From positions 1 to 33,043 of the IMG/VR virus record IMGVR_UViG_3300030098_003125: a stretch of 33,043 bases of DNA. One strand, 5' to 3'. Numbering within the stretch: the first letter of the stretch is position 1; every line of letters begins with the position of its first letter. This DNA is from a virus. Below, in pieces: positions 3,279 through 33,043 of the stretch. The notes beneath the pieces were generated by a model. It did no database searches and was not told where the DNA came from. It saw nothing but the letters and a program-made list of their open reading frames with translations. The translations under genes were made by a program, and so were the position numbers.

Positions 3279-4283
3279 TTAAGATGCAGACAATTTAATT
3301 GTAGCTGCTGCTTCTGGTCTTAGGATTCCATGCCCAAGTGCATATTTCGCCACCATAAGTGTTCCCTGGTACATGATTCCGTAGTCGGAGCCTGAGATCT
3401 CAGTGGTCATGTCCATGAGTTTCACTGTACCAACTGCTGACTTATGGAAGACTAAACCAATAGTCTTACTGTCGTCACCAGCATAGGTGTTATTAGATCC
3501 ACCTAATTCATTAGCATCAGATCCACCTGGAGGTTTGTTCTCCTGTGAAATGTTGTTGCTCATGATCACAGGCATACCTGCAATCTGCTGAACACGACCT
3601 GAAGCAAATGAACCATTACCACCTGGGTTGAAATCAGTATCGATAGTACGAGTAGCTGATTCAGGTAATTTGTAATATTCCGCTGGAGGAAGTACAACAA
3701 ATCTATCTGTAGGAGGAATGTCTCGCTCATCAAATGTTTGAGCGATATCATAGATAGCTGCTGCTAACTCATCACCAGTAACATCTGCAGAAGCAGTATT
3801 ACCATTAGCAAGAGTTAGAACAGTACCACCATTACCACCAGAGATAGTTGCTGAAGCACGACTCGCGTTCGCGATTACCTTCGCAACGTTCTGGTCATAA
3901 CGCCGAGCAAGGGCCTTTCCTAACTCTTGAGCATAGGTAGCTCTTACGTCGTAATGGTTCTTAAGCTCATCTAAATCTGTGATGAAAGCTTGAGAAATTA
4001 GTAGATCATCAATAGAGATAATCTTTTCGTTTGCCTTGATTTGGTTAGCACCAACCAGCGGTGTACCTACTGTGTGATACGCAGCTGTTGCTGTACCCAG
4101 TACGGGAAATTGGGCTGATTTACCTGAAGTGATAGTCCTAACAGTTTGCATTCTCTCGTTGAACACATTGTTCTCAGAGAACGCAGTCAGAACCTCGCCA
4201 CTAAAAACCTTTAAGAAAAGGGCATCGTAGCCAGTACCACTATTGTTAACCAGACCAAGGCGTGAAACTGTGGCGTTAGCCAT
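3279..4283 (-). CDS. Major capsid protein (T7 gp10-like)
   Basis: This is the shell protein of the head, with an HK97-type fold expected from the family. Its 334 residues compare with 345 for T7 gp10A. Visible family features include 'DALFLKVFSGEVLTAFSENNVF', 'RTITSGKSAQFPVLGTATAAYHTVGT', 'KANEKIISIDDLL', the helix 'YAQELGKALARRYDQNVAKV' and the C-terminal 'GLVFHKSAVGTVKLMDM'. ATG 4283 is preceded by AAGGA at good ribosome-binding distance. A 138-bp leader with small hairpins separates it from the preceding gene, unlike the tightly packed genes around it, and a terminator follows, both fitting high separate expression. I saw no frameshifted longer form like T7 gp10B. Confidence 0.94.
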   Translation of the reverse strand: MANATVSRLGLVNNSGTGYDALFLKVFSGEVLTAFSENNVFNERMQTVRTITSGKSAQFPVLGTATAAYHTVGTPLVGANQIKANEKIISIDDLLISQAFITDLDELKNHYDVRATYAQELGKALARRYDQNVAKVIANASRASATISGGNGGTVLTLANGNTASADVTGDELAAAIYDIAQTFDERDIPPTDRFVVLPPAEYYKLPESATRTIDTDFNPGGNGSFASGRVQQIAGMPVIMSNNISQENKPPGGSDANELGGSNNTYAGDDSKTIGLVFHKSAVGTVKLMDMTTEISGSDYGIMYQGTLMVAKYALGHGILRPEAAATIKLSAS

Positions 4284-5446: not shown

Positions 5447-5668
5447 TTAACCTTTAGAAGTTGAGATTGTGTTTCCTTTTCTAGTCTTGTATTCGACTTT
5501 TTGAGGTGTATCAGGATTAGGTTCAGGAGAAAGGCTACTGACTACAGCATTAGCTGAAGTATCTTCTACTACTTTTGGTGTCTCTACCTTTGGTGCTTCC
5601 ACTTTAGGTTTCTCAACCTTTGGTGTTTCAACTGGTTTAGTTGTTTCAGACGGCTTCTGGGTTGGCAT
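5447..5668 (-). CDS. Proline/lysine-rich PKVE-repeat protein
   Basis: A 73-residue low-complexity protein. Residues about 11-36 consist of tandem PKVE(K/A/T)-type repeats (six or so units), followed by a short acidic/polar part ending 'TRKGNTISTSKG'. No fold can be assigned; it is probably extended. Its ATG at 5668 overlaps the end of the portal gene by 23 bp, and its stop is 3 bp from the scaffold start, so it is embedded in the head operon. Possible roles as a linker or accessory head protein are speculative. Confidence 0.7.
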   Translation of the reverse strand: MPTQKPSETTKPVETPKVEKPKVEAPKVETPKVVEDTSANAVVSSLSPEPNPDTPQKVEYKTRKGNTISTSKG

Positions 5669-7229
5669 CGGTTTGCTCCGTTAGTTGTTGTGCTTGGGCA
5701 TTGTTTTTAGGATCTAATAAAGGAGACCCTAAAGCAGCTGGCCCAAGATGTTGGATCAGCTGTTGTTGTTGTTGAGCTTGTAGCTCTTGTGCAATTTGTT
5801 CCTGGGACTTAACTAAGTTAGCGGTATCTATACCAGTTGCATTAGCTAAACGTTTAATAGCTTCATCGACATTCACGTATTGTCTCATAACATCTGGTCC
5901 TAAAGCCTGAGAAATCGTAGCAATAAATTCTACTAACTTAGCTCTATCGTTACCTCTACCAAGACCTTGAAGACCAGTGACTATCTTAGGTTTGACTATC
6001 TTTTCTGGTAACTTAGGAGCCTTGCCACTACGAGTAAGCATGTGCATTCTTCTCTTTAAATATGGCAACTGAAATTCCTGGGTCAGAATACTGTAAATTC
6101 CGCCCAGACTATTTTCTAATTCATTTGCCATGATAGAAACTTCTGCTGCTGTTACTCTTTCAGCATCTCTTTGTACTGATCTAGCCATTAAGAAAGCATA
6201 TTCAAGACGGCTTTCTATACGTTGAATAGCAGAGAAACTAACTTGGAAGTCAGCACCTTTATTGACTTGCAGGACGCTGACATCGGATGCTGACCCTTCC
6301 CGTATAGCCCCATTAGGAGCCTTGGCTAAGGTTGCAGCTCTAGTAACACCATTAGGATTAACAAGGAATAATGTCTTAGCACTAGCAGCGGCACCTTCAA
6401 TTATTGCTTGCATTAAAGACTCAAGACTAATTAAATCGCCTTTGTACTCAGTGACATACGAATCCCCGTAATCAACTCCATCTCTTCTAGTCCAACGTAA
6501 TAAAATCCAAGGAGATACATCAGCTTTTGATTTGCCATCAGTGCCAGGAATCCTTTCGCCTTTACATTCTTGGAACCAAGTAAATTCATCACCATATCTT
6601 TTGATACATGTATAGATGTCTAAGTCTTCGTCATAATCTTTAGCGTCATAATTATCTTTCTTTTTAATTTGTTCTAAAAATTTATCTGGTAAAGCTTGAG
6701 GATGAACTGTCTCTTTTGTAATAATTTCTAAGACATTACCAACATCATCACGTTTACAGACATATCTATCTAAGTGATAAACTTTTAAACCTTTGTCAGT
6801 TAAATAAAGAAGAACGTTACCACCAACAATTAAATGCTTAAGGGCTTCAAATAAAGCAACCCTGTCATTAGATATTTCTATCTCATTCATCAAAGCATTT
6901 TCTATAGTCTTTAACCCTTTATCTATTTCAGTTTCTAATCCTTCTTGTCCTTCCTGAAGCAAAGCAAGACTATCAATGCTTAGTTTGAAGAAGGGAGTAG
7001 AAGGAGGTAGCAAAGCAATTAACAATTTACTTGCTAACGAATTAGTACCTCTAGCTCCTACAGCTTGGAAAGGAGTTTTTATTTTTGCGTGTTTACCTAC
7101 AGTTGATTCCGGTATTAAAGAAGGAATCGTTAATTTAGAAGCATCCTTTGCTTCCCTTTCATAGGGAGCACGATCACTTACTAACTGTTCATATCGACCA
7201 GCAGCTGTTTGACCTATAGCAAGATCCAT
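5646..7229 (-). CDS. Portal (head-tail connector) protein, T7 gp8-like
   Basis: The dodecameric portal is the DNA gateway of the head. The length of 527 residues is close to T7 gp8 (536). Family hallmarks are 'RAPYEREAKDASKLTIPSLIP' near the N-terminus, 'VGARGTNSLASKLLIALLPPSTPFFKL', 'ALKHLIVGGNVLLY', 'PWILLRWTRRDGVDYGDSYV' and 'RDAERVTAAEVSIMANELENSLGGIYSILTQEFQLPYLKRR'. The C-terminus is Gln-rich (AQELQAQQQQQLIQHLG). It follows a short gp7.3-like gene by 2 bp and overlaps the next gene by 23 bp. The assignment is secure. Confidence 0.95.
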   Translation of the reverse strand: MDLAIGQTAAGRYEQLVSDRAPYEREAKDASKLTIPSLIPESTVGKHAKIKTPFQAVGARGTNSLASKLLIALLPPSTPFFKLSIDSLALLQEGQEGLETEIDKGLKTIENALMNEIEISNDRVALFEALKHLIVGGNVLLYLTDKGLKVYHLDRYVCKRDDVGNVLEIITKETVHPQALPDKFLEQIKKKDNYDAKDYDEDLDIYTCIKRYGDEFTWFQECKGERIPGTDGKSKADVSPWILLRWTRRDGVDYGDSYVTEYKGDLISLESLMQAIIEGAAASAKTLFLVNPNGVTRAATLAKAPNGAIREGSASDVSVLQVNKGADFQVSFSAIQRIESRLEYAFLMARSVQRDAERVTAAEVSIMANELENSLGGIYSILTQEFQLPYLKRRMHMLTRSGKAPKLPEKIVKPKIVTGLQGLGRGNDRAKLVEFIATISQALGPDVMRQYVNVDEAIKRLANATGIDTANLVKSQEQIAQELQAQQQQQLIQHLGPAALGSPLLDPKNNAQAQQLTEQTDANPEAV

Positions 7230-7692: not shown

Positions 7693-7884
7693 TCAATCTT
7701 CTGTTGCCATTAAATATTCTATATACATTTTAGCTTTTCTCAAATCTTCTTTACCTCCTTTCTTGTACCAACGTGAAATGTATTTAATAACATTGCCTTC
7801 ACAGTACCCCATATTATTTTTCAATATGTACTCAATTGGTGGGATAGGGAAGTTGTAATGTTCAGGTTTAGTTACGGGGTCCAT
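7693..7884 (-). CDS. DUF3310-type small protein
   Basis: A 63-residue protein matching the DUF3310 pattern: 'KPEHYNFPIPPIEYILKNN', then 'YCEGNVIKYISRWYKKGGKEDLRKAKMYIEYLM', with the typical HY...EGN(V/I)xKYxxRxxxKGGxxDLxKAxxYI layout. The family is widespread in phages; a related domain occurs in T7 gp1.7, a nucleotide kinase, but this short form lacks any P-loop and its activity is unknown. ATG 7884 overlaps the end of the exonuclease gene by 13 bp, placing it in the DNA metabolism operon. Confidence 0.85.
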   Translation of the reverse strand: MDPVTKPEHYNFPIPPIEYILKNNMGYCEGNVIKYISRWYKKGGKEDLRKAKMYIEYLMATED

Positions 7885-8603
7885 AGTTCTACCTCTTTAG
7901 TTTTGTAGTTGAAATCTCCTTCTCGAAGAATGCGAGAAAGACGAGCTGTTAATAATGCATCAGTAAAAGTTTGTTTCTTTTTTTCATATGCCTTTACTAC
8001 TTTGTCCCACATATCAGGCAAAGTTTTTGCATCACCTAAAATCTTATCTGCTGTAACAGGACCACAACCAATTAGTCCTTTGAAATTATCTGTAGTATCT
8101 CCAGTTAAAGATTGAAGCATCCAGTTTCTATCAGCTTTTTTCTTGGTTATTAGTTCCATGTCATCACTAGCAATAAGAGTACAAGGAACAGTTTTCATAT
8201 CTTTATCAGGAGAAACAACAATAGAATTTGAATATCTTTTAGATGTAGCAAGAAGACCTAAAACATCATCACCTTCTAAACCTGTATAAGAAACTGACTC
8301 ATATCTTTGTTTAATTTGTTCAACCATTGCGTATAAAGCTAATGGTTTACGTTTGTTCTTTCTATTAGCTTTGTAGTCAGAAAATATCTGGTGTCTAAAT
8401 GTTGGGTACTCAGTGAAGCACATGACCACATCAGTTTTATCATCAGCAATGGTTTGGTAATACTCAATTCGACTATCAATCATTTCATGTATATCTCTTT
8501 CATCACAGTGAAGAGTATGTAGGTTTTCATCCCACTTAACATCTTGCTCACAACTGCAACAAGAAGAATAAATTAACCAGTCAGCATCAATTAATAAGGT
8601 CAT
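7872..8603 (-). CDS. 5'-3' exonuclease (T7 gp6-like, FEN family)
   Basis: In T7 this enzyme removes RNA primers and degrades host DNA to recycle nucleotides. The 243 residues carry the FEN-type metal ligands in order: 'LLIDADWLIY' (D6, D8), 'SDYKANRKNKRKP' (basic helical arch), 'LEGDDVLG' (E110, D112, D113), 'SPDKDMKT' (D133, D135) and 'GDTTDNFKGLIGCG' (D169, D172, then the helix-hairpin-helix-like turn). It ends 'YKTKEVELWTP', like the gp6 C-terminus. It is shorter than T7 gp6 (about 300). ATG 8603 is 2 bp after the primase-helicase stop: the DNA polymerase gene that separates these genes in T7 is missing. With no phage polymerase, primer removal here must be coordinated with a host polymerase. 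Confidence 0.93.
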   Translation of the reverse strand: MTLLIDADWLIYSSCCSCEQDVKWDENLHTLHCDERDIHEMIDSRIEYYQTIADDKTDVVMCFTEYPTFRHQIFSDYKANRKNKRKPLALYAMVEQIKQRYESVSYTGLEGDDVLGLLATSKRYSNSIVVSPDKDMKTVPCTLIASDDMELITKKKADRNWMLQSLTGDTTDNFKGLIGCGPVTADKILGDAKTLPDMWDKVVKAYEKKKQTFTDALLTARLSRILREGDFNYKTKEVELWTP

Positions 8604-8605
8604 GG

Positions 8606-10225
8606 TTAAGCACCAAAATAAGTGGACATAGGAATAGAAAGACGACCAGTGTTTTCGTCATACAAAAGCTTATCTATTGGTCCAGTAGATCCAGTGTGTC
8701 TGTTCTTCAGAATCCTTAGTTGCATTTCAGATCTTTCAGCAGGGTCTCCTTGTTGATTTCTTTCTGCTGAAATACATAGATCAGATAATTGTAAAATTGC
8801 TGAGCTGCCTCTCAAATCTGAGGTAGAAACTTGTGATCCCTGCTCATGTGATACACCTTGTGGTCTTCTTAAATGAGAGACAAGAATGATAGCGACACCA
8901 GTACTTTCAACTACCTGTCTAAGTTTTGTACAAGTAATATCAATAGCTCTTCTCTCATCTACATCAGCTAATCCAGAGATGACAATAGTTAGATGGTCAA
9001 GAATAACTACATCAACTCCTTCTGCTGTAGCCATGTATTGAATCTGTTCTATTAACCTGTCTGGTTCCATTGAACCGAAATGGTCATAGAGGAATAATTT
9101 TTCTGTACCAAATAATTTATCAAAGGCTGATTTTAATCCTTCTACTTCTTCTATCTGTTCTTCTAAATGCAGTGGCTTATTAAGTTCTATTCCCAATATG
9201 CCTTGCATAGTTCTTTGTACTGACTCTTCTAAAGCTATGTATCCAACAGTCAATTTATTCTTTAAAAAATGATGAGCTAACTCTCTACACAAACTTGATT
9301 TCCCTGTTCCTGATCCAGCGCAAATCGTAATCATTTGGGATTTACGAAAACCCCTCGTGAATTGATCCAGCATTGGATAAGGAAAAGGACAAACAGAACT
9401 TGCTCCTTCTTTAGTTAGCTCTTCCCATAAATCATTTGCATTTAAGATTGAATCCGGTCTAACAGGTGTTGCCTTCCACAACAGACTTTTAAGCTCTTCT
9501 CCTTCACCTGCGAGGAGCATTTCATTAGCATCTTTTCTTGGTAATCGGCATATAGCTGCTTTTCCAGCAGGTAATATTTCAATTGCTTTTTCTGCTGCTT
9601 GGATACCAGGTTCATCTGAATCGAAGCATAGAACAATTTTGTTGAATTGATTTAGCCATTTTAAATTTGCAGCTAAATACTTATTAGCAGATTGAGCGCC
9701 AGATGGTAGAGAAACCACAGGAAATTTGTTGCCTTGTACTTGTGAAATAGACATAGCATCTATCTCTCCTTCAGTAATTACAGCAAAAATGTTTCCGTAA
9801 CTACCGTGTTGACGCCATAGTTTTTGCCCCCATAACTGTACATTTTTACAGTCACCTACCCATATAAATTTCTTATCTTTAAACCTTATATGTTGTGCTG
9901 ATTGTCTACCTAGTTGATCTTCATAAGTAGCTACTTGTACAGGAGAGCCATTGTAATCAGCTATTCCATAGTTAAAAAACTTGGCAGTTTCTTCTGTAAT
10001 ACCACGCTTGGGAAGTTCTTTTGGCGTGACGAATTTTATTAATGGTGGTGTCACTGGTGTAGAGGAGTAATAAGATTTACGTTTGTGTTTTGTTTCAGTA
10101 GGAGCAGGCACTCTGTAACTACAGCCAAAGCAAAAAGCATGACCGTCTGAATAGACAGCAAGATTGTCTTTACTGCCACAGTTAGGACAGGGGCTTTTCT
10201 TGACGTACTTGTTTGTTTCTGTCAT
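8606..10225 (-). CDS. DNA primase-helicase (T7 gp4-like)
   Basis: A bifunctional replisome enzyme that lays RNA primers and unwinds the fork as a hexamer. Of 539 residues, a zinc-binding domain comes first (C13, C16, C32, C35). A TOPRIM primase domain follows with 'VITEGEIDAMS' (E152) and 'LCFDSDEPG' (D202, D204). The RecA-type helicase has Walker A GSGTGKS at 304-310, Walker B 'VVILDH' (D410) and 'LVSHLRRP' (H451). The C-terminus ends 'ENTGRLSIPMSTYFGA' without the acidic tail that in T7 gp4 contacts the phage DNA polymerase. The next gene is the exonuclease, 2 bp away. ATG 10225 overlaps a 40-codon ORF by 44 bp. Function is certain; how it couples to a host polymerase is open. Confidence 0.96.
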   Translation of the reverse strand: MTETNKYVKKSPCPNCGSKDNLAVYSDGHAFCFGCSYRVPAPTETKHKRKSYYSSTPVTPPLIKFVTPKELPKRGITEETAKFFNYGIADYNGSPVQVATYEDQLGRQSAQHIRFKDKKFIWVGDCKNVQLWGQKLWRQHGSYGNIFAVITEGEIDAMSISQVQGNKFPVVSLPSGAQSANKYLAANLKWLNQFNKIVLCFDSDEPGIQAAEKAIEILPAGKAAICRLPRKDANEMLLAGEGEELKSLLWKATPVRPDSILNANDLWEELTKEGASSVCPFPYPMLDQFTRGFRKSQMITICAGSGTGKSSLCRELAHHFLKNKLTVGYIALEESVQRTMQGILGIELNKPLHLEEQIEEVEGLKSAFDKLFGTEKLFLYDHFGSMEPDRLIEQIQYMATAEGVDVVILDHLTIVISGLADVDERRAIDITCTKLRQVVESTGVAIILVSHLRRPQGVSHEQGSQVSTSDLRGSSAILQLSDLCISAERNQQGDPAERSEMQLRILKNRHTGSTGPIDKLLYDENTGRLSIPMSTYFGA

Positions 10226-10470: not shown

Positions 10471-10611
10471 TTATTTAAATCCTTTTACAGGTTTTAGGTT
10501 TAGTTTTGCTTTCGGCTTGACCAATCTTGGTCTTGCTCTGCTGCCAGTGTTGTAGTTGCGACTAGTGCCGCCAGGTTGTGCTTTGTATGCACCACTTTTT
10601 TTTGCTTTCAT
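10471..10611 (-). CDS. Small very basic protein, 46 aa
   Basis: ORF MKAKKSGAYKAQPGGTSRNY followed by 'NTGSRARPRLVKPKAKLNLKPVKGFK': about a quarter of the residues are Lys/Arg and none are acidic. A nucleic-acid-binding role would suit the composition, but that is inference. Its ATG overlaps the endonuclease stop by 1 bp (TAATG) and the following gene starts directly at its stop. Too short for routine gene callers. Confidence 0.6.
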   Translation of the reverse strand: MKAKKSGAYKAQPGGTSRNYNTGSRARPRLVKPKAKLNLKPVKGFK

Positions 10612-11048
10612 TAGTACCAATCATTAGGAATTGTTTTATGACACCAGAGAAACCCATTCCTAGTAGCCCATTGACCATAAGAAAGGCTTCTCTTTTTGCC
10701 ACGACTTAGTTTTGTCTTTGCGTTCTGAAAGCAGAAACGTATATCTAAACTGGGATTTGCCGCCTTAACCGCAAGCATTTTCCTTCGGTCTTCTTTAGAT
10801 AAATAACCTTTGGTTTCAATGATGATCCCATTGCCAAGGATAAAGTCAGGGCAGTAGCTGCAACTGAGAATGTACTTAAGATCAAGGGATTCATAACTAA
10901 AGGCAACTTTATTTTTGTTTAGGGTAGCGGCAATTCCAGCTTCAAATTTACTTCTGTACTTTTGTTTAGAACTCGTTTGCTGCAACTGTTGAGGCTGGCA
11001 TTGGGCACTCTTGGCTTGGCTCCTGTGGCTCTTCTGTTTGAAAGCCAT
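10611..11048 (-). CDS. Endonuclease I (T7 gp3-like Holliday junction resolvase)
   Basis: It resolves branched DNA during packaging and takes part in host DNA breakdown. The catalytic set of T7 endonuclease I (E20, D55, E65, K67) is visible as E36 in 'KYRSKFEAGIA', D68 in 'CPDFILGNG', and E78/K80 in 'IIIETKGYLS', with the family's 'DIRFCFQNAKTKLSRGKKRSLSYGQWATRNGFLW' downstream. I chose ATG 11048 because AAGGAG lies 11 nt upstream; it gives 145 residues (T7: 149) and an 83-bp overlap with the SSB gene. An ATG at 11078 without a Shine-Dalgarno sequence, or a TTG at 10985 with less overlap, are alternatives. The enzyme assignment is firm, the start less so. Confidence 0.9.
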   Translation of the reverse strand: MAFKQKSHRSQAKSAQCQPQQLQQTSSKQKYRSKFEAGIAATLNKNKVAFSYESLDLKYILSCSYCPDFILGNGIIIETKGYLSKEDRRKMLAVKAANPSLDIRFCFQNAKTKLSRGKKRSLSYGQWATRNGFLWCHKTIPNDWY

Positions 11049-11601
11049 ATCCAGTTGCACTCCTTGAGTATTCAACATGGTTTTTAATCATTACTGCTTC
11101 AGGTTGAATTTTTATTCCAACTCCAAAAGCAGGAGTTTCCCAACCGCTACAACGTAGGTTGACTTGTCCTGTAGTGCCTGGACCACATTTGTTAACAACA
11201 ACCTTTTGGCTGTCAGACATCACAGAACCATCAGCATTAAATAATGTTGGTGGTCTGTTCTTCCACTGAGTACCATCAGGTCTTGCACCACCTACCTTCA
11301 TCTTTGCTCTGACTTTAAAATAACCTTTGGTTTCTCCTCCATCAGTTACTTCTTCAAAGCCCCAAGGCAAGGCAGCAAGTTTAAATTTCTTACTTGGATT
11401 AGCAGTTTTTAGTTGTGCCTTCCATCTATCAAGAAGACCAGTTAATTGTTGTTCAATTTCCTGTGATTCTTCTGGATCTATGAGGCAAGTAATTCTCCAT
11501 TCACCCATAGGATCAAACTTAGTGTCTGGTTCTACAAGCCATGCAAATTGAAACTTACAAATTGGTGTGGTGACGTTTAGAATTTCAGATTTGAGATTCA
11601 T
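10966..11601 (-). CDS. Single-stranded DNA-binding protein (T7 gp2.5-like)
   Basis: It coats ssDNA and organises the replisome. The 211 residues (T7 gp2.5: 232) show 'CKFQFAWLVEPDTKFDPMGEWRITCLIDPEE', a gp2.5-type strand pair, 'GYFKVRAKMKVGG', 'RPPTLFNADGSVM' and 'CSGWETPAFGVGIKIQPEAVMI'. The C-terminus keeps the terminal aromatic residue (…VAANEF), but the tail has only scattered Glu (EEPQEPSQE) rather than the dense acidic run that in T7 docks DNA polymerase and gp4. This fits the missing polymerase gene. The gene follows RNA polymerase after about 100 bp, which include a perfect ACCATATGGT palindrome at 11643-11652. Confidence 0.9.
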   Translation of the reverse strand: MNLKSEILNVTTPICKFQFAWLVEPDTKFDPMGEWRITCLIDPEESQEIEQQLTGLLDRWKAQLKTANPSKKFKLAALPWGFEEVTDGGETKGYFKVRAKMKVGGARPDGTQWKNRPPTLFNADGSVMSDSQKVVVNKCGPGTTGQVNLRCSGWETPAFGVGIKIQPEAVMIKNHVEYSRSATGYGFQTEEPQEPSQECPMPASTVAANEF

Positions 11602-11704: not shown

Positions 11705-14116
11705 TCAACTAAATACATAAGGAGCTGACATAACTTCTTTAATATCAAAGTCTCCCATTTCTAATGGTGCTGGTAATTTACTTGGATCATCTAACTGAGT
11801 AGAAGCTTGATCATATAAATCATTTAATACATTATTCTGATAAATCTCTACAAAACTTTCCTTAGCACAAGTAACAAAGTCTTCTATTTGTCCTGCTACT
11901 GCTCCATAACAATCATGGATAGTACAAACCTGATCTATTCCCCTGCTCTTTGCCTTCTCTAAAGCTAAGTGAACATTAGCAGCATCCATGCTGTGTACGA
12001 AATTAGCTGGAAAACTTTGTACTGATCTTCTTTTATCTATTTCATCTAAATCTTCTAATAGTGTCAGTCTTATAGTGCTATGCCCCATTTGAGTTTTAAT
12101 CTTTTTACTAAAAGTTTTTTGATAACTTTGCTTAACTAGAAAATTAGAAGGAGTTAACCATTCAATTTGTTTTTCTTCTTTTGTAAAACATCTACCTAAT
12201 TTAGTTAAATAAGACATAACTTCAGTAGAAGAAGGACATACATCTGCAACTGATTGTTTAATCATTTCTGCTAGATAATGGTAATGTTTAAATGTCTGAG
12301 TACCCCAAGGAACTTCTATGTTATGCTTAACTAAATACTCCTTCAAACACAAGGCTATACCATAGATTGTACCTGAATAAGGTATCATCATAATTGGTTT
12401 CTTTATTAGTTTCCTTGTTATAAATTCTTTATGATCAAACCAATCTTTTGCATATGGTCTTTCGTCATTTGATAGATTAAATATTAAATTAGTTCTTATA
12501 TTTTCATATAAATCTTGTGGTTCTTCTGACTTGCATAAGTTAACTGAACTAGCAAGATGTTGATCTAAAACCATTGCTGCAAAATGTTGATATCCATTAT
12601 TAGTTCCATCAAGCATGACTGGATGATGACTAATAAATCCATATCCCTGTTCATCTAATCCATTCATGTCTAAGCACCAACTAAGAAATTGCCAAGGCTC
12701 TTCTGCTTTACTCCATAAACTCACATAACTCTCAGGATTACCTGCAATATTTCTAGCCATATGGATACCTTCATTATTAGCCCATTCAATTCTTTCCTTA
12801 TAACTAGCTTTAGTCATGCCCCAATGATTTGCACCAGCAATACAAAGCCAATTTCTATCTTGTTCATTTCTAATGGGAGCACCTTTTTTAAATTGATGTA
12901 ATCCTCTAGTTAAATCTGTTCCCTGTGGATTAAACGACCCAGATACTGCATACAAACGACCAGTAAAATCTGCCTGATGTACATGAAAAAAAGACTTAGA
13001 GCGATAGTATTCAGCAGTATCTAAAATAGTTAAACACTGATATCTCTTAGCTCTGTTATGTGCATTAGTGTCACATCTAATTGATTTTTCTCTTTTCCAT
13101 TTATTACGAGCATCATCATTTGTATTTATGTCAAATGGTTTAGGAGGTATAGGTAATGGTTCTGCATCTATCAAGCCGCCAACTTCTGTATTTGTATTCC
13201 AGCAATAGTTAGCAGCTTCCAAGACAACTTCATTAATTCCATACTCAGTACCTTGTAAAGCATTTAATGCAACATAAAAAACTTCTGGGTTCTCATCATC
13301 AAACTCTTTTGAATAGTCATTTCCCTTTGTCTTGACTGCTTTTATATTGCTTAGTCTTTCTGTATAAAATCCACCATCAGCAAAGTTAGACCAGTTCTTA
13401 GGTTGAATAAGACAAGGCATTAGCAGTGGATAAGCAGCTAATCTATTTGTCTTTTGTCTCTTTATCCAAGCTAAACTGCCTTCAGTAAATTCCAGATAAG
13501 TTCTCTTTGTTTTATTAAATAAATATCCTTTATTAACTAGCTTTACCAACCCAACTGACTTCATTAATAGGTCAATTAAAGTTAGACCTACTCTAAGTTT
13601 ATCTTCCTTCTTCCATGCTTCAAATTTATACCCCTTGTTTCTCATATGACCAAGAACCATAGCTCTTCTATAGCCATAGTGTTTTGTGTCACTGATATGA
13701 GTTTTTAATATCTCAAAATATCTAGGATCATCTTTATTAAAAACAGAAAATTTAATTTCATCTTCTAATAAACTTCCTATCTTTACTGCTACAGCAGCAG
13801 CAGAAGTTTTGTTTTGACTGACGTTATCTAAAATTACTTTAAATGCTATGTAAGCAACAACATCAATATCACTAAACTTTTGCAGGATGATGGCAGCTCT
13901 TGCTTTTCTTCCTGGCGTTGCTCTCCAAGCTCTATCAATAAACTTACCAATCTCTTCTACAAAAGGTTGTAATCCTGCATGCATCATGGAGATGGCATAA
14001 GGATTATCTGATTCCCTACCTTTTTCTATGTTGTGTCTAATACGACTGCTATAAGCATCAAATGCTCTACCAGCCATTTCGTTTTCATGTTGGACCTGAA
14101 TCTGGGCTTGATCCAT
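11705..14116 (-). CDS. Single-subunit phage RNA polymerase (T7 gp1-like)
   Basis: It transcribes the middle and late genes from phage promoters. At 803 residues it is about 80 shorter than T7 RNAP (883). The catalytic motifs are intact: motif A 'VMLDGTNNGYQHFAAM' (D503, matching T7 D537), motif B 'TRKLIKKPIMMIPYSGT' (K572/K573, Y580, matching K631/Y639) and motif C 'TIHDCYGAVAG' (D735, matching D812), preceded by 'FVHSMDAANVHLALEKA'. 'FTGRLYAVSGSFNPQGTDLTRG' at about 384-405 is another family block. ATG 14116 has AGAGG at good spacing. A stem-loop arrangement lies immediately upstream. Promoters used by this enzyme were not identifiable by eye. Confidence 0.96.
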   Translation of the reverse strand: MDQAQIQVQHENEMAGRAFDAYSSRIRHNIEKGRESDNPYAISMMHAGLQPFVEEIGKFIDRAWRATPGRKARAAIILQKFSDIDVVAYIAFKVILDNVSQNKTSAAAVAVKIGSLLEDEIKFSVFNKDDPRYFEILKTHISDTKHYGYRRAMVLGHMRNKGYKFEAWKKEDKLRVGLTLIDLLMKSVGLVKLVNKGYLFNKTKRTYLEFTEGSLAWIKRQKTNRLAAYPLLMPCLIQPKNWSNFADGGFYTERLSNIKAVKTKGNDYSKEFDDENPEVFYVALNALQGTEYGINEVVLEAANYCWNTNTEVGGLIDAEPLPIPPKPFDINTNDDARNKWKREKSIRCDTNAHNRAKRYQCLTILDTAEYYRSKSFFHVHQADFTGRLYAVSGSFNPQGTDLTRGLHQFKKGAPIRNEQDRNWLCIAGANHWGMTKASYKERIEWANNEGIHMARNIAGNPESYVSLWSKAEEPWQFLSWCLDMNGLDEQGYGFISHHPVMLDGTNNGYQHFAAMVLDQHLASSVNLCKSEEPQDLYENIRTNLIFNLSNDERPYAKDWFDHKEFITRKLIKKPIMMIPYSGTIYGIALCLKEYLVKHNIEVPWGTQTFKHYHYLAEMIKQSVADVCPSSTEVMSYLTKLGRCFTKEEKQIEWLTPSNFLVKQSYQKTFSKKIKTQMGHSTIRLTLLEDLDEIDKRRSVQSFPANFVHSMDAANVHLALEKAKSRGIDQVCTIHDCYGAVAGQIEDFVTCAKESFVEIYQNNVLNDLYDQASTQLDDPSKLPAPLEMGDFDIKEVMSAPYVFS

Positions 14117-14562: not shown

Positions 14563-14765
14563 TAGTCTTCCTCCTTTGTTGTGTAGTAGTTGGTAATAGT
14601 TTCAGCTAACGCTTCTATTAGCTCATGATCCCAAGGTTCATCTTGTGCTAACCCAAAATTACTTAGGTTCTTGATCATGTCTTGTGCTAATTCAGCCTTA
14701 TAGCCTGGTTGTGACATCTGATATTCAGGTGTCCACGGACAATCATTAGGATCTAAATAAGTCAT
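14562..14765 (-). CDS. Small acidic early protein, 67 aa
   Basis: Acidic soluble protein (MTYLDPNDCPWTPEYQMSQP, later 'DEPWDHELIEALAETITNYYTTKEED'). Its ATG overlaps the stop of the zinc-ribbon gene (ATGA) and its TAG overlaps the next GTG. No recognised domain. Aromatic and acidic surface residues would suit a DNA-mimic or host-protein binder, but that is only a guess. Confidence 0.65.
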   Translation of the reverse strand: MTYLDPNDCPWTPEYQMSQPGYKAELAQDMIKNLSNFGLAQDEPWDHELIEALAETITNYYTTKEED

Positions 14766-15115
14766 AAGTCTTTCCTCTTTTTAAGTAGTTTCTTATGTTT
14801 ATTTACTTGACCAGCCCATGAAAGCAGCTCTTCTAATAAATCTGCTATCTCAGCAGCAATAGAAGCTAAGTGTTTTTCACTTCCTTCTAAATCTCCTGCT
14901 TCTTTTTTTACTCCAAGCATGATCGCTTGAAGTTCTTCTACCTCATATTCCCTAGTAGAAAACAAGTGATTACATTTAGTACACCGCCTCCTTCTACGGA
15001 TATAAGGTGTTTGGTCTGTGTTTCTTGTTTCCACTGAAGGAGCGCCAGTAATTTTTTCCTGACCTGCTCCAGTGGATACAAAACTTACAGAGCCACAAGA
15101 AGGGCACTTAAGCAT
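14762..15115 (-). CDS. NrdR-like zinc-ribbon protein without ATP-cone
   Basis: The 117-residue protein opens with an NrdR-type zinc ribbon: C4-P-S-C7 and C45-x-x-C48 in 'YIRRRRRCTKCNHLFSTREYE', the Arg run and 'C..C...F(S/T)T.E' being the family signature. NrdR represses ribonucleotide reductase genes through a ribbon plus an ATP-cone. Here the ATP-cone is absent; instead residues 60-117 form a helical, Lys-rich C-terminal part ('IADLLEELLSWAGQVNKHKKLLKKRKDL'). It may bind DNA of host nrd or other promoters without nucleotide sensing (inference). It starts 2 bp after a small membrane protein gene and overlaps the next gene by 4 bp. Confidence 0.78.
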   Translation of the reverse strand: MLKCPSCGSVSFVSTGAGQEKITGAPSVETRNTDQTPYIRRRRRCTKCNHLFSTREYEVEELQAIMLGVKKEAGDLEGSEKHLASIAAEIADLLEELLSWAGQVNKHKKLLKKRKDL

Positions 15116-17557: not shown

Positions 17558-19267
17558 TTAAAACATGGAAGCATTTGAGTGGTCAGTTTGTTTGATTTGG
17601 TCCATAGACATACCCATAGCTGTTTGAGTGATTGTGTTGTTAAGGGAGGAACCCCATTCATCTAGGTGGAGTCTTAGAAGTTCATCTTTTCTAGATCTTA
17701 TGTTGCGATCTTCATCAGCAGACATGTAGTCAGTCCAATAGGAGACAGCACCAGACAGAGCATCTAGGATGTCATCATGGACTAAGGAGCCTTTGTGACG
17801 TGTTATGCGGGACATTTGATAAAAAAGCTGGAGTTTTAGTTTTCTTTCTGGTGCTTCATTTGTATTGGATCTGTAGTCTTTTTCTACGACTTTCCTATCA
17901 ATGATTAATCGGTGAGAGTTCATTACAGGTTCTAGGGTATCGATGATTCTGAACTCTTTTGTTTTGTTATTGCGTACGTTTTCTATTTGACAGGGGTGAT
18001 ATCTAGAAAGAACAGGTTTAAGAAGTTCAGCAAACATTCCTCCTCCGAAGTTTTCTTCACAGATGATGGTATTAACTTTGTGATCTCTAGCTAATTTAGA
18101 AAGTCTTTCTAGAACTCTGTCGTCATAACCACCAACAAGACCACCTGCATCTGATACAAAGAGATTACCGTTAAGCATTTTGACAATTGCGTAACCAGTA
18201 GCATCTTTTCCTTTACCAGAAGGGTCAATTGACATAACTGAACCTGTGTATTCAATCCAGTCACCAAATTCTTGTGCAGGTCTGTAATATCTATCTCCAT
18301 TGAAACCTACACATGGGAGATCTGGTAGGGAGTATTCAGGAGAATTAGACCATATGACTTTTTCTGGAGCGTGTTCAGGGTTAATTGAAGAAATTATTAG
18401 GTCAGAAAGTTTAAGAGGATATCTATCTTGGTCAGATAAGGAAGTATCCAGCATGAACTGGAGGGAGAAGCCAGAGCGACCATAGGAAGCTTCTCTTTCC
18501 ATTAGGTCAACACTATTGAATCTATCTGGGTCAACAGGATCTTTAGGCTTTACAACCTCATCTAGAAGCCTTTGAGCAACTTTAGGAGCAAGTCTATCTC
18601 CGTAATTGTTTTTAAGGTTTGGATATCTAGCAGGCCATATACAGGTTTCATATCCTCTTTCTTCTAAGGTGAGATAAAGACTTTGCTCAGTTTGGGGCGT
18701 ACCTAGGAAAGTAATTTTGCCTTTAGGTTTAAGGATTGCATCAAATTCTTTAACAGCTTCACTAAGCTTGTCTCTCATCGGTTGAGTGAAAGAGTTGTTA
18801 GGAACTTCTACGTCATCAGCTACAACTTCATCAGCCCTAGAACCTGCCATTTGTCCTAGTACACCCACAGATTTAACTGAGGGAGCATGGTCAGCTCTAG
18901 CAGGTCTTACATCAAAACTTATTTTACTGTTTCTCTGAGTACCATCTGGACGTAAAGGAGCAAGGATATCCATTTCACTAATTAGTCTCATAGTGAAAGT
19001 AGAGAAATTATCAGCTCTATCTTTAGAAGCAGAGACCACAAGGAATTTTAGTTGTGGATTCATCCGTAGTTTCCAGACTACGTAAGCAGAAGTAATCCAA
19101 GATTTACCTACACCCCTAAAAGCTTGAACAATCTTTCTTCTAGGACCGTGTTGAAGATATTCAGCTATCTCTAGTTGTACTGGTGTTGGGTCAGGAAGGT
19201 TTAAATGCCTCCAAGTAAGAATTAGAAAGTATCTAAAGTCTTGTAATTTCTCTGGTAAAGGTTGCAT
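17558..19267 (-). CDS. Large terminase subunit / DNA maturase B (T7 gp19-like)
   Basis: ATP-driven packaging motor and nuclease that cuts concatemers. About 569 residues (T7: 586). The ATPase has 'IVQAFRGVGKSWITSAYVVWKL' (Walker A, residues about 50-56) and 'ADEVVADDVEVPNN' (Walker B, about 145-157), followed by 'GKITFLGTPQTEQSLY'. The nuclease domain has acidic residues in 'VMSIDPSGKGKDATGYAI' (D about 348), 'IICEENFGGGMF' (E about 404) and 'HDDILDALSGAVSYW' (D about 498-502). I use ATG 19267; a TTG one codon upstream is possible. It follows the methyltransferase gene by 4 bp and is the last gene before the control region. Confidence 0.95.
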   Translation of the reverse strand: MQPLPEKLQDFRYFLILTWRHLNLPDPTPVQLEIAEYLQHGPRRKIVQAFRGVGKSWITSAYVVWKLRMNPQLKFLVVSASKDRADNFSTFTMRLISEMDILAPLRPDGTQRNSKISFDVRPARADHAPSVKSVGVLGQMAGSRADEVVADDVEVPNNSFTQPMRDKLSEAVKEFDAILKPKGKITFLGTPQTEQSLYLTLEERGYETCIWPARYPNLKNNYGDRLAPKVAQRLLDEVVKPKDPVDPDRFNSVDLMEREASYGRSGFSLQFMLDTSLSDQDRYPLKLSDLIISSINPEHAPEKVIWSNSPEYSLPDLPCVGFNGDRYYRPAQEFGDWIEYTGSVMSIDPSGKGKDATGYAIVKMLNGNLFVSDAGGLVGGYDDRVLERLSKLARDHKVNTIICEENFGGGMFAELLKPVLSRYHPCQIENVRNNKTKEFRIIDTLEPVMNSHRLIIDRKVVEKDYRSNTNEAPERKLKLQLFYQMSRITRHKGSLVHDDILDALSGAVSYWTDYMSADEDRNIRSRKDELLRLHLDEWGSSLNNTITQTAMGMSMDQIKQTDHSNASMF

Positions 19268-19271
19268 CAAT

Positions 19272-19889
19272 TCATGCTGCTAATAATAAAGAAAGTTGTT
19301 CAATTGGAATTGGTAGTTTTGATTCATTTCCCCATTGATTACCCATTGCATCTGCAATCCCTTGAAAAGTTGCACTTCTAACTTTTGCATTAGCGTTGCT
19401 ATACCAAGCAGGTAATTTATTTCCTCCTTTAGTTATACAAAACTCACCTTTTCCTACTCGTTTAGTTGGTTTTAGTCTGTTTAAATTTTTTAACCAAAGG
19501 CATGTTGTTTTTTGTGCTTCATGACCAAATTCCCAAGGTTGAATTATTTGATCTGGTGGTCTAATACAAGAACTAATTACACTGACAGGATTTTCAATAC
19601 ACCATCTTTTTATGGGTGCGTTCATTAATAAACGAACAAAATCAAGAGCTTCTTTTTGTTCTTTTTCTTTACGCCAAAAATGTTTGCTACCTGATACAGC
19701 AAGGTGTGTACAAGGTGGATGGGCAATCATCAGATCAAAACCATCATCAAGGATGTTTGTTACATCGCCTTGATAATGAGGGCCGTCAGACTCAGTAGGA
19801 AGCAAATCGCAAGAGATTGCGTCGTGGCCTTGTGCAATGAAAGCATCACGGATTCTTCCTGAGTATTCACAAGCAACTAAAACTTTCAA
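19272..19889 (-). CDS. C5-cytosine DNA methyltransferase-like protein
   Basis: A 205-residue protein with a shortened C5-methyltransferase core: N-terminal SAM-site-like 'VLVACEYSGRIRDAF', motif IV 'IAHPPCTHLAVSG' with catalytic C60, and motif VI-like 'CIENPVS' (E99, N100). The usual target-recognition domain and part of the late motifs are short or missing; C-terminal 'WYSNANAKVRSATFQGIADAMGNQWG' resembles motifs IX-X. Similar small proteins occur in many phages and could protect DNA from host restriction or mark ends. The start is TTG 19889, 4 bp after the small terminase stop. Its place between the two terminase subunits is unusual. Activity is not assured. Confidence 0.78.
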   Translation of the reverse strand: MKVLVACEYSGRIRDAFIAQGHDAISCDLLPTESDGPHYQGDVTNILDDGFDLMIAHPPCTHLAVSGSKHFWRKEKEQKEALDFVRLLMNAPIKRWCIENPVSVISSCIRPPDQIIQPWEFGHEAQKTTCLWLKNLNRLKPTKRVGKGEFCITKGGNKLPAWYSNANAKVRSATFQGIADAMGNQWGNESKLPIPIEQLSLLLAA

Positions 19890-20826: not shown

Positions 20827-21285
20827 ATGAATGACGAAACCAAAAACGAAACCAAAGACAAAAAAGAAAACAAAAAAAATCCAATACAAAGGTTAAAAGA
20901 AGGATTTGATGATAAGGAAGAACAACTGCAAGTTCTTTCTACTTTTGTCAGGTTGGGAGTTGTAGTTTGGAGTGGGTTTATATTAACTTTAAACTATGTA
21001 GAATTGCCTGGTTTAGGTAAACAAGAAAGGATCGACCCGACTTTCATAGCAAGCGTTTTTACGGGCGCCCTTGCAAGTTTTGGTTTAGAGACTGCAAAGA
21101 AAAGAGGAGATGGAACTTATAAAGCTGATGAAGAGAAAAAGAAAGCAGAAGCAGCAGGTTTTAGCAATGGAGTTCCTTATACGATCATAAGAGTTGAGAC
21201 TCCAATAAAGCTTGTACCAGACAAGCCAAGGATTGATCCTATCTCTGGTAAAGAGGTTGATCCTCAGAGTGGGAGGTTGACATGA
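20827..21285 (+). CDS. Two-span membrane protein, holin-like
   Basis: A 152-residue protein with a highly charged Lys/Asn/Glu N-terminus (MNDETKNETKDKKENKKN), 'IQRLKEGFDDKEEQLQVLSTFVRLGVVVWSGFILTLNYVELPG' with a first membrane span, a second span 'IDPTFIASVFTGALASFGLETA', and a charged, Pro-rich C-terminus. Two spans with charged ends suit a class II holin or related pore protein. I associate this type of protein with cyanophages, function unproven. It is the first gene of a plus-strand operon; its TGA overlaps the next ATG. Confidence 0.72.
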   Translation: MNDETKNETKDKKENKKNPIQRLKEGFDDKEEQLQVLSTFVRLGVVVWSGFILTLNYVELPGLGKQERIDPTFIASVFTGALASFGLETAKKRGDGTYKADEEKKKAEAAGFSNGVPYTIIRVETPIKLVPDKPRIDPISGKEVDPQSGRLT

Positions 21286-21491
21286 TGAGTGAAGATCTTT
21301 CGATTGATGCAAGACAAGAAACTCGTATTGTCTGCCAAGAGATGAAAATTAAACGAGCAGAAGAAAAGATAGGAGACTTAGAAGATAGGGTCAGACTTTT
21401 AGAGAAAAGGGTATTCCAAGCTGCTGCACTAGTTAGTGCTGGTTTGGCAGTATTAGGATTACTAGCTCAGATTTCAAAGGCTTATTTATGA
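21282..21491 (+). CDS. Coiled-coil plus C-terminal membrane span protein (XhlA-like topology)
   Basis: 69 residues: an N-terminal charged region with coiled-coil spacing ('RIVCQEMKIKRAEEKIGDLEDRVRLLEKRVFQ') followed by a C-terminal hydrophobic span 'AAALVSAGLAVLGLLAQISKAYL'. This layout is that of XhlA-type lysis-associated proteins, although I see no specific sequence match. Start and stop both overlap neighbours (ATGA at each junction), so it is translated together with the holin-like gene before it. Confidence 0.68.
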   Translation: MMSEDLSIDARQETRIVCQEMKIKRAEEKIGDLEDRVRLLEKRVFQAAALVSAGLAVLGLLAQISKAYL

Positions 21492-21988
21492 AACGCTTTA
21501 TTCCCCTCTTGCTGTTATTAGCAGCTCCAGCACAAGCTGACATAGCAATCAAGCATACTCAATCAGCAAGCTTAAAAGTTGATGGAGCAGCAGTACAGGC
21601 CATTAGAGTCCCATCTACTTATGCTGTCTCTGGTAACAACATGAAAGTGACTACTGGAGAACACTTTGGAAAGTTAACAGCGGGTTCCTCTTCAGCGGCA
21701 GCAACACTTGATGTTGGTGTATACGAGATGAATACTGTAGGCAGTGCTTATTCTTTTGAAGAAAGCTGGCTACAAGGGGACGCTATCCCTGCTATCGGAA
21801 GTGGTGTGGATGTCTCCGCAGGGGTGGTTGCAGACATGCCTGCTTTCGGAAATACCGTAGTAACTTCTGGAGGTGTAGCTGGAAATCTTGCTGGTACGGT
21901 CACAAGTGCAGGCGTTGTTACGATCACTGCTGGAGGAGCAGGTACAACAGCAACAGGTCAAACAAGCTCGGAAATAACTGTTAAATAG
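21488..21988 (+). CDS. Exported Ala/Gly/Val-rich beta protein, 166 aa
   Basis: A clear signal peptide: MKRFIPLLLLLAAPAQA with cleavage before D18. The mature part is rich in Thr, Ser, Val, Gly and Ala with short beta-like repeats ('VVTSGGVAGNLAGTVTSAGVVTITAGGAGTTATG'). It has no Cys in the mature part and no enzymatic motif. I associate this kind of exported protein with cyanophages, but its role is unknown; export from a lytic phage implies action in the periplasm or at the surface. Its TAG overlaps the next GTG (TAGTG). Confidence 0.7.
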   Translation: MKRFIPLLLLLAAPAQADIAIKHTQSASLKVDGAAVQAIRVPSTYAVSGNNMKVTTGEHFGKLTAGSSSAAATLDVGVYEMNTVGSAYSFEESWLQGDAIPAIGSGVDVSAGVVADMPAFGNTVVTSGGVAGNLAGTVTSAGVVTITAGGAGTTATGQTSSEITVK

Positions 21989-22434
21989 TGCATAAAATAT
22001 ATAAGTTATTGTTGCTTATATCTTTTACAGGAACTAGCGTTTCTGCTGTTCCCGTCGTCCCCACATTTTCTACAGGGACTCTAAACAGCAGACAAGAAAC
22101 TAAGACTGTAGTTAGTGAAACTATAACTAGTGTAGATTATAGATCTGGTTATGAATACGTTGTTTCTGGTCACAATATCGAACCAATAAATACAAATGTT
22201 ATTTCTCCTAAAGCTGTACTAAATACACCTCAAACCGTTGACAACATCACCTTTACATGGACATCAGTAGATGTAACACCAGCAAACAAACCCGATTGGG
22301 GAATAAAAACTGCTGGCAACGCTTTTTCATTCACAGAAACACTAGCCAATCCTGGCCTTTCAAATGTAACAACAATAAACCGAACCACTACAACAGAATC
22401 CTTAGTCGAATCGGTATCTGTCTTTACTCAATAA
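21988..22434 (+). CDS. Exported Thr-rich beta protein, 148 aa
   Basis: Starts at GTG 21988. Signal peptide HKIYKLLLLISFTGTSVSA, cleavage before VPVVPTF. The mature part is Thr/Val/Ser-rich ('TKTVVSETITSVDYRSGYEYVVSGHNIEPIN', 'NAFSFTETLANPGLSNVTTINRTTTTESLVESVSVFTQ'). It shares phrases with the protein before it ('Y.VSG.N', 'G.A(F/Y)SF.E'), so the two are probably paralogues. Function unknown. The next ORF overlaps its last 178 bp in the -1 frame. Confidence 0.68.
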   Translation: MHKIYKLLLLISFTGTSVSAVPVVPTFSTGTLNSRQETKTVVSETITSVDYRSGYEYVVSGHNIEPINTNVISPKAVLNTPQTVDNITFTWTSVDVTPANKPDWGIKTAGNAFSFTETLANPGLSNVTTINRTTTTESLVESVSVFTQ

Positions 22435-23108
22435 CATTTAGTCAACCAGTATTTGCAAACTCAACGACTATAGCCTCTCCATCTGCAACATCCCAAGGCA
22501 GTGTTATTAACCAAGGAATACAGGTTCAAAGTGGTAGCTTTATGTTTCAAGAAGTAGGTGATGGAATCCGTTGCAGTGGAACAACTCTTACTATTAATCC
22601 CTTCATCTCTAAAGTCAACACTTGGAAAGATCCGTTTGAACCTTATTACCAAGAAAATGTATATGATGATAGTACAGATGATGATGGTAATTTAATCAAT
22701 CCTGGTGGAGTTTTATATACGAAACCAGTTAGAACTGGACAAGCTGAAAATAACTTAAGTTTTAATTATGGTATTACAGCTACGATTGCCGTTCCACTAG
22801 ATAGACGCATGACCAATAACTGTGTAGCTGCTATGAATACAAGAGTAAAGTATTTAGAACAAGCCTATAAAGCTAAGAAATTAGATTACGCTCTTGGACG
22901 TTTGAAGGTATGTGCCGAACAATTAAAACTTGGTGTTGTCTATGCAAAAGATAGCCCTAGCTACGTTGTCTGTGAAGATGTTCGCCTAGTAAATCCTCCT
23001 AATACATTGCCAGATCACACCCATAGCATTGAAGTTACTTCCGAGAGTCTCTCTGATCCTTTTTCCTTTCAGCGAGGGACTTTACAGGAGGTTTCTTCCC
23101 CCGAATAG
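22257..23108 (+). CDS. Exported protein with uncertain start (-1 frame overlap)
   Basis: The first ATG in frame is 22257 (283 residues), which would overlap the 148-residue gene by 178 bp. However, a signal-peptide-like segment 'RILSRIGICLYSITFSQPVFA' begins only near residue 47, so the real start is probably near 22398 (an ATC codon), or the frame is reached otherwise; the only other standard start is TTG 22296. The mature part ('NSTTIASPSATSQGSVINQGIQVQSGSFMFQEVGDGIRCSG', 'NNLSFNYGITATIAVPLDRRMTNNC', 'CAEQLKLGVVYAKDSPSYVVCEDV') has several Cys and looks like a folded exported domain. The 3' end overlaps a convergent minus-strand gene by 74 bp. Function unknown. Confidence 0.6.
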   Translation: MDISRCNTSKQTRLGNKNCWQRFFIHRNTSQSWPFKCNNNKPNHYNRILSRIGICLYSITFSQPVFANSTTIASPSATSQGSVINQGIQVQSGSFMFQEVGDGIRCSGTTLTINPFISKVNTWKDPFEPYYQENVYDDSTDDDGNLINPGGVLYTKPVRTGQAENNLSFNYGITATIAVPLDRRMTNNCVAAMNTRVKYLEQAYKAKKLDYALGRLKVCAEQLKLGVVYAKDSPSYVVCEDVRLVNPPNTLPDHTHSIEVTSESLSDPFSFQRGTLQEVSSPE

Positions 23109-32800: not shown

Positions 32801-33043
32801 GCATCTACTGGTTGATCTTTAATTGTTAAAACAGCGTAAGAATCTTTTCCTGGTTTTGCTGGTTTATTTGTTTCTATATCAAGCCATTCAATATCAGGAT
32901 CATTTTTAAACCATCTTGCATATATAGATCTTTTCTTTTCAGTAGATCCAAAAAGTTCATACTTCCCTGGAGGAAGAACCTCTCTAGTTCTTTCAAAACT
33001 ATTTTTTAAAAGACTTACTTTTTTTTGAGTAGATAAATTTGAA
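29872..33043 (-). CDS. Large internal virion protein, gp16-like, 5' end outside window
   Basis: In T7 gp16 is part of the ejectosome that carries DNA through the envelope. The frame is open from the stop at 29872 to the right window edge, at least 1,056 codons. The ATG at 32580 is internal: the sequence before it continues in frame without a stop ('…KTTEDTIDGGIR' then 'MLANTNKLKSHAQMYAKIYG'), with a Gly/Pro-rich linker at about 32.73-32.82 kb. Recognisable blocks include 'IPMVRTLMSFVRAPTNIIKRQLRRTPALNK' and 'VPPVILTGGGPNW...RAVWKSMLKNGWLPYS', which I associate with gp16-type proteins. Directly followed by the fibre gene, as in T7. A transglycosylase domain, if present, would lie outside the window. 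Confidence 0.78.
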   Translation of the reverse strand, partial: SNLSTQKKVSLLKNSFERTREVLPPGKYELFGSTEKKRSIYARWFKNDPDIEWLDIETNKPAKPGKDSYAVLTIKDQPVDAGGGGAKPPNKPPISQGDGPLEGTSITPHQVNPEQVSNTSEQFNFIVNRIKQLKEEGAFSSVKTTEDTIDGGIRMLANTNKLKSHAQMYAKIYGLVPTDELNYALAEAVTLSTQKTADINQKLIDAINVSKDPVLIEQNINEIIKSIGEIDEWLRLGIPLRTEQGRGLRSMQIPTQGVSPEEFAKMTPAEKYKLNRTGQSTISIKESEQSLKLEELKTNLLDAFEVAKQTGNYTALNKLTNTIKRASNSDNPIEKITALYETTLLHKTLSSFNKANRIFNEIGINALLSAPTTNEINFLSGVLETYMSSYELIRGAGSRTELDAAIRHLMALHSNTSFARKAFTQSFKTSDNWINRGALKADYQEKFVISSEGKDILSRVYDGSGKVIRFPSQLMTSVDALVQAPNLIASIHYQGHIEGAKLGYKGKDLDNYIKGHLDAILEYYASNSGKGIKDKVTARILKRSQEFAKRSTFTEDIRADGYFDFGHAAKFINSAANQIPMVRTLMSFVRAPTNIIKRQLRRTPALNKLLKELAVDLESTDPIVRNQARGQMKVAKDLGLTVAALTGAGILMQQDPNFVPPVILTGGGPNWKTKEGRAVWKSMLKNGWLPYSVGHLQKNEVGQPLIGDDGKPVYKYYSYERLDPLSTWIGLMVDFSVSNGYLTDDEYDEFTVGWMGAFTRNLFDRSYLQQVDDAMKAFSDERGGTEREKFWSQQLASRFFYGNFTRYAKQLPGDLLDMVGVLKEDSARFHQKRDTRLRAGDKLFGRFDVSGKDEVEGASELRSLLNRYSETVPGMGGNLPYQREHITNEPILYPQKPGPDLFSWIKTSTSKNHPLWTALGTIGKELREPSDVITGSASSKRVEPFRLTTTEYAELKEIVNTIESRDGKNIDQTIREYLKSDHYKKNIALVKKNGALNEVIGVNEIYSKLQQINNAYIGAGEEEWIMRQGRERQQEQRDKKKGIINKYIEEIQSLAN

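Follow-up and report, generated by a model that had tools for sequence, protein, structure and literature searches.

The window, a stretch of 33,043 bp of viral DNA analysed at its full length, encodes a T7-like podovirus of the Autographiviridae type, as judged from its T7-type RNA polymerase (RNAP), its T7-type terminase and the synteny of its replication, portal, capsid and tail genes. Pfam and PHROGs assignments give the gene order RNAP, SSB, endonuclease I, gp4 and exonuclease, after which come portal, scaffold, capsid and tail genes. Read along the minus strand, the single-subunit RNAP (11705–14116; PF00940, E 1.3e-82; lineage A type in its tree, see below) precedes a gp2.5-like single-stranded DNA-binding protein (SSB; 10966–11601; phrog_112) whose acidic tail is retained and ends in -EF, a gp3-like endonuclease I (10611–11078; PF05367, E 2.8e-32), the 539-residue gp4 primase-helicase (8606–10225; Pfam DnaB_C, Toprim_2 and Helic-prim_T7_N; phrog_239; stop codon TAA) and a 243-residue gp6-like 5'-3' exonuclease (7872–8603; PF02739; phrog_107). 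The exonuclease is followed by a small DUF3310 protein (7693–7884; PF11753). The portal, or head-tail connector (5646–7229; PF12236), the major capsid protein (3279–4283; phrog_267) and the terminase large subunit (TerL; 17558–19270; PF22530) lie on the same strand and were also placed by trees, with an additional AU test for TerL. Both contig ends truncate minus-strand genes, namely the tail nozzle gp12 (1–2607; PF25675) and a large internal virion protein, whose C-terminal part (29872–33042; phrog_6651) is 95% identical to that of G002, a near relative of 38.5 kb with a 96% identical gp4.

Several smaller features accompany these genes. The SSB and endonuclease I frames share 113 bp as listed (10966–11078), and the true endonuclease start may be further in. 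A small NrdR-like zinc-ribbon protein is encoded upstream of the RNAP (14762–15115, minus strand). A DUF6322 protein (21988–22434, plus strand) belongs to a short plus-strand cluster (20827–23108) that opposes most of the genome. The DNA methyltransferase-like gene before TerL (phrog_757; 19272–19889, minus strand) is missing in the near relatives G002 and G029, and homologues occur in P-SSP7 and in the gp4-gp6 slot of locus L046, a distribution that suggests mobile cargo.

In T7-like phages, the slot between gp4 and gp6 usually holds gene 5, which encodes the family-A DNA polymerase gp5. In the window, this slot is reduced to the two bases CC (8604–8605, minus strand) between the gp4 stop codon and the exonuclease ATG. 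The absence of gp5 is not a definitional matter for a T7-like podovirus, as the MPP-C phages, 18 Prochlorococcus podoviruses with the same gene order as the window, also lack a polymerase gene (Cai et al. 2022; PMC9860041). The 2-bp spacing had been reported in an earlier note on this DNA and was read again directly. The same note had claimed that the window contains all the other replication genes and neither a DNA polymerase nor a spare ORF long enough for one, and these claims held. The RNAP, SSB, endonuclease I, gp4 and exonuclease are each backed by Pfam and PHROGs, and the profiles for polymerase families A (PF00476), B (PF00136) and C (PF07733, Pol III alpha) gave no match in the window. 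The family-A model matched each of the six T7-like positive controls (T7, P-SSP7, Syn5, P-RSP2, HTVC120P and CRP-125). Every window ORF of more than 400 residues encodes RNAP, gp4, TerL, the portal or a virion protein.

The part of the genome beyond the window had been expected to carry virion genes only, which is true of G002. The region of G002 that corresponds to the missing flank encodes gp13-like and gp14-like proteins and internal virion proteins of 802 and 1532 residues, and no polymerase was found in it. A phage-encoded polymerase that is too divergent for the profiles and lies in an unassigned or virion-sized ORF is a reservation that the MPP-C authors also keep (PMC9860041). Numerous small ORFs are indeed without assignment and the 802-residue G002 protein has no PHROGs match, but this protein contains an SLT lysozyme domain and sits between the gp14-like and gp16-like genes. 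With all window ORFs above 400 residues assigned, and, among the matches listed in a blastp screen, no polymerase-sized family common to the polymerase-less genomes other than those that gp5-positive phages also have, such a polymerase is very improbable. By profile search and gene content, the window is confirmed as polymerase-less.

The tight gp4-gp6 junction recurs among relatives of the window. Among 146 polymerase-less loci in IMG/VR, which come from many metagenomes and represent ~134 distinct contigs or records with a few loci counted twice, the gp4-gp6 distance is ≤6 bp in 128 and 214–884 bp in the other 18, versus 1822–4490 bp in gp5-positive loci. A gp5 profile matched none of the 146 loci, and PF00476 was negative in all 74 related records searched, several of which are 38–41 kb long. 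An assembly collapse or deletion confined to the window contig, with a real phage that carries gp5, was considered as an alternative. This kind of junction is shared with most of the 146 loci and with isolated phages whose genomes are complete (PMC9860041). Because the tight junction recurs across independent assemblies, an assembly error is rejected, and the probability left to it is negligible. The loci L008, L010, L046, L053–L055, L058 and L059 contain gp4-gp6 inserts of 346–852 bp; no small polymerase was found in the inserts that were read, which encode methyltransferases, ThyX, zinc-ribbon proteins (L053 and L058) and unknown genes. In some relatives, the old polymerase slot is thus filled by a methyltransferase or by ThyX together with a zinc-ribbon protein.

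The loss of gp5 is accompanied by a change at the C-terminus of gp4. In T7, the acidic gp4 tail binds gp5 (PMC12593628; also PMC5997990), and processivity falls from 17 kb to about 5 kb when it is deleted (PMC12593628). The window gp4 ends in ...TGRLSIPMSTYFGA, without an acidic -DF tail. A gp4 terminus of the form [DE][FWY] is present in 140 of 167 gp5-positive loci, mostly as -DF, versus 0 of 146 polymerase-less loci, and the last 12 residues have an average net acid of +2.5 versus -0.4; an aromatic gp4 end is missing in 14 of the 167 gp5-positive phages as well. The polymerase-less gp4 terminates soon after a conserved TGRL motif, often as ..P[ML]S.YFG. The SSB of polymerase-less loci has an aromatic end in 116 of 116 cases and an end that is both acidic and aromatic in 99. 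Across the polymerase-less clade, the counterpart of the T7 docking tail of gp4 is gone and the SSB tail is retained. The loss of the gp4 tail is expected if the main role of the tail was to hold gp5. Because polymerase loss lies on one branch, the two losses count as a single co-occurrence. One deletion from the gp4 3' end to the gp6 start would perhaps have removed the tail and gp5 together.

The relationships among these phages were analysed with trees of individual genes. The gp4 tree was built from 78 representatives, including 18 polymerase-less ones, with the C-terminal tail left out. All 18 fall into one clade with an SH-aLRT value of 100, and the exonuclease tree likewise unites the polymerase-less members at a support of 100. 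The clade includes deep branches beyond MPP-C with a GC content of 55–64%. The polymerase-less state most likely arose once. The TerL, portal, capsid and RNAP trees divide the same phages differently, each lineage at a support of 100. Lineage A contains the window, P-SCSP2 and close environmental contigs, and lineage B comprises P-SCSP1 together with further marine contigs and a group of high-GC contigs. The window accordingly groups with P-SCSP2 and apart from P-SCSP1 in its backbone genes, and with both phages in gp4 and the exonuclease. When the gp4 grouping was imposed on the TerL data, it was rejected (p-AU 1e-85).

Sequence identities follow the same division. Between lineages A and B, the median identity of the module genes (gp4, 61.5%; exonuclease, 54.7%; endonuclease I, 51.2%) is near the within-lineage values, and that of the backbone genes (RNAP, 25.1%; portal, 48.6%; capsid, 49.1%; gp11, 38.8%; TerL, 52.5%) is near the values against gp5-positive phages. 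The window itself is nearer P-SCSP2 in capsid, TerL and portal and nearer contigs of lineage B, G012 and G039 among them, in SSB, gp4 and exonuclease. Its SSB reaches 0.50–0.59 of the self score against the lineage B members G012, G013, G039 and SCSP1u, versus 0.18 against P-SCSP2. This discordance between module and backbone is read as exchange of the module between backbones.

Two other histories were considered. Separate gp5 losses in lineage A and lineage B, with no module exchange, would account for the distance between the lineages in the TerL, portal, capsid and RNAP trees. They are improbable given that the gp4 and exonuclease trees join A and B at a support of 100, with identities far above those of the backbone genes, and that both lineages share the tight junction and the tail loss. 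Alternatively, the module and backbone of both lineages could descend from one polymerase-less ancestor, the module having evolved more slowly. The portal tree has A and B as sisters at a support of just 59, and the AU test on gp4 leaves a B clade without A unrejected. Inside lineages A and B, however, the virion genes and terminase are better conserved than the module (gp4, 60–66%; TerL, about 79%), so that slowness of the module does not account for the high A-B identity. The order of conservation is reversed between A and B alone, and the window SSB is nearer lineage B members than P-SCSP2. Descent with a slow module is therefore unlikely, albeit a possibility of some weight. The replication module has probably been exchanged, with two or more phage backbones involved, and the window carries it on a P-SCSP2-type backbone. 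The gp4 tree nests lineage A inside lineage B, but without significance (AU p 0.096, or 0.093 with the exonuclease added), and A is still one clade when gp4 and exonuclease are combined. At these p values of 0.09–0.10, the AU tests do not decide between directions of transfer.

The polymerase-less clade is wider than MPP-C and probably reaches past cyanobacteria. The window has a GC content of 36.6%, which is compatible with a Prochlorococcus host. A comparison of the window gp4 with genome contigs, made in search of a host link, returned no relative. Among the high-GC polymerase-less contigs, G023 and G041 contain identical tRNA-Met 3' fragments, as att sites, beside integrase genes (at 27917 and 11420, respectively). 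A 45-base core of this fragment matches a Burkholderiaceae MAG exactly, once within a tRNA-Met gene, and is present in 2 of 398 sampled genomes of the same phylum, the MAG counted; the cyanobacterial contrast comes from a scan of a single collection. This slender set of matches points to a deep high-GC branch that may have a non-cyanobacterial host. A tRNA-Leu-like att fragment of another contig, G019, was compared with 120 genomes of the order and gave no host. The 60-kb contig of locus L059 (G023) was considered as a prophage with a host flank and rejected, as its second part consists of virion genes of another T7-like phage. From 38.6 to 60.4 kb, the polymerase-less phage is joined to this second phage via a 1.2-kb, 90% identical repeat; the contig is probably chimeric and was trimmed before analysis.

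The gene content suggests a mode of replication in which the SSB, endonuclease I, primase-helicase and exonuclease module would run without gene 5. The phage gp4 would unwind and prime, the gp2.5-like SSB would coat the single strands, and the gp6-like exonuclease would remove primers and trim ends. Synthesis would fall to a host replicative polymerase, as the earlier note proposed and the MPP-C authors also infer (PMC9860041); Pol III, as the replicase of the host, is the likeliest candidate, and Pol I is a possible alternative. Since gp4 has lost the tail by which it grips gp5 in T7, the host polymerase may trail the fork uncoupled or may dock in another way, for example on the short conserved aromatic gp4 C-terminus (..P[ML]S.YFG) or on the kept SSB tail. 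Among the matches listed, the blastp screen found no protein confined to the polymerase-less clade that could recruit the polymerase; gp5-positive phages share the fully common families, and the matches that seem to be exceptions are mostly ORFs opposite conserved genes. Docking, if any, would therefore reside in gp4, SSB or exonuclease. Taken as a whole, a polymerase-less clade that includes MPP-C, replicates with a host polymerase, has one origin and has exchanged its module onto a P-SCSP2-type backbone is a very probable explanation.

The discoverers of the MPP-C phages raised the question of how these replicate when they have no polymerase, and the joint loss of the helicase tail offers a molecular way into it. 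The gp4 tail loss, the probable module exchange and the breadth of the clade go beyond known MPP-C and are new here; no prior description of them was found in the literature searched. The module exchange suggests that a four-gene unit (SSB, endonuclease I, gp4 and exonuclease) carries the polymerase-less state. As this state seems to travel with four genes, the four might suffice for an in vitro test with a host polymerase. The stronger proposal that this cassette, with its tail-less gp4, is a portable and self-contained unit that works on any host replicase through a new docking mode, and has moved between backbones from Prochlorococcus to Burkholderiaceae hosts, is tentative and somewhat short of an even chance. 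The breadth of the clade also implies that surveys based on DNA polymerase as a marker overlook more phages than the MPP-C paper estimated.

The earlier note had mentioned a marine cyanopodovirus lineage without DNA polymerase and had judged that the window probably belongs to it or to a sister group. This lineage exists as MPP-C, which includes P-SCSP1 and P-SCSP2 (PMC9860041), and the trees bear out the placement: the capsid, portal, TerL and RNAP of the window group with P-SCSP2 (support 100), and its gp4 lies in a clade with both phages. The MPP-C cyanopodoviruses are the nearest isolates. The window is thus a new member of a phage kind that is already in the literature, with a backbone in common with P-SCSP2, and its polymerase-less lineage is known and ocean-wide. 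P-SCSP1 and P-SCSP2 resemble the window in their T7-like gene order, the lack of a DNA polymerase, the direct succession of gp4 and exonuclease, the lack of psbA and similar virion genes. A psbA model was negative in the window and in 27 polymerase-less records and positive in the P-SSP7 control, and no hli, mazG, rnr, talC or thyX is among the annotated window ORFs. The window capsid and terminase are 85% and 75% identical to those of P-SCSP2, whereas gp4 is just 56–59% identical to those of P-SCSP2 and P-SCSP1, and the SSB is of the B type, unlike that of P-SCSP2. Compared with these two genomes, the window contig is incomplete and no integrase was found in it; the nearest long contigs measure 38.5–38.9 kb and the MPP-C genomes 37.3–37.9 kb. 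The uncultured phage MedDCM-OCT-S08-C159 (Jalkavirus S08C159), of which 10 kb is known, has the same polymerase-less gp4-exonuclease junction and a gp4 59.5% identical to that of the window. The MPP-A, MPP-B and P-RSP2 cyanopodoviruses (Syn5, P-SSP7 and P-RSP2) share the order RNAP-SSB-endonuclease-gp4-exonuclease-portal but, unlike the window, contain a family-A polymerase and a gp4 with an acidic -DF tail. Coliphage T7, the source of the gp4/gp2.5/gp6 replication model, has a gp4 that is ~39% identical to the window gp4 and differs in possessing gp5, which is held by the gp4 tail.
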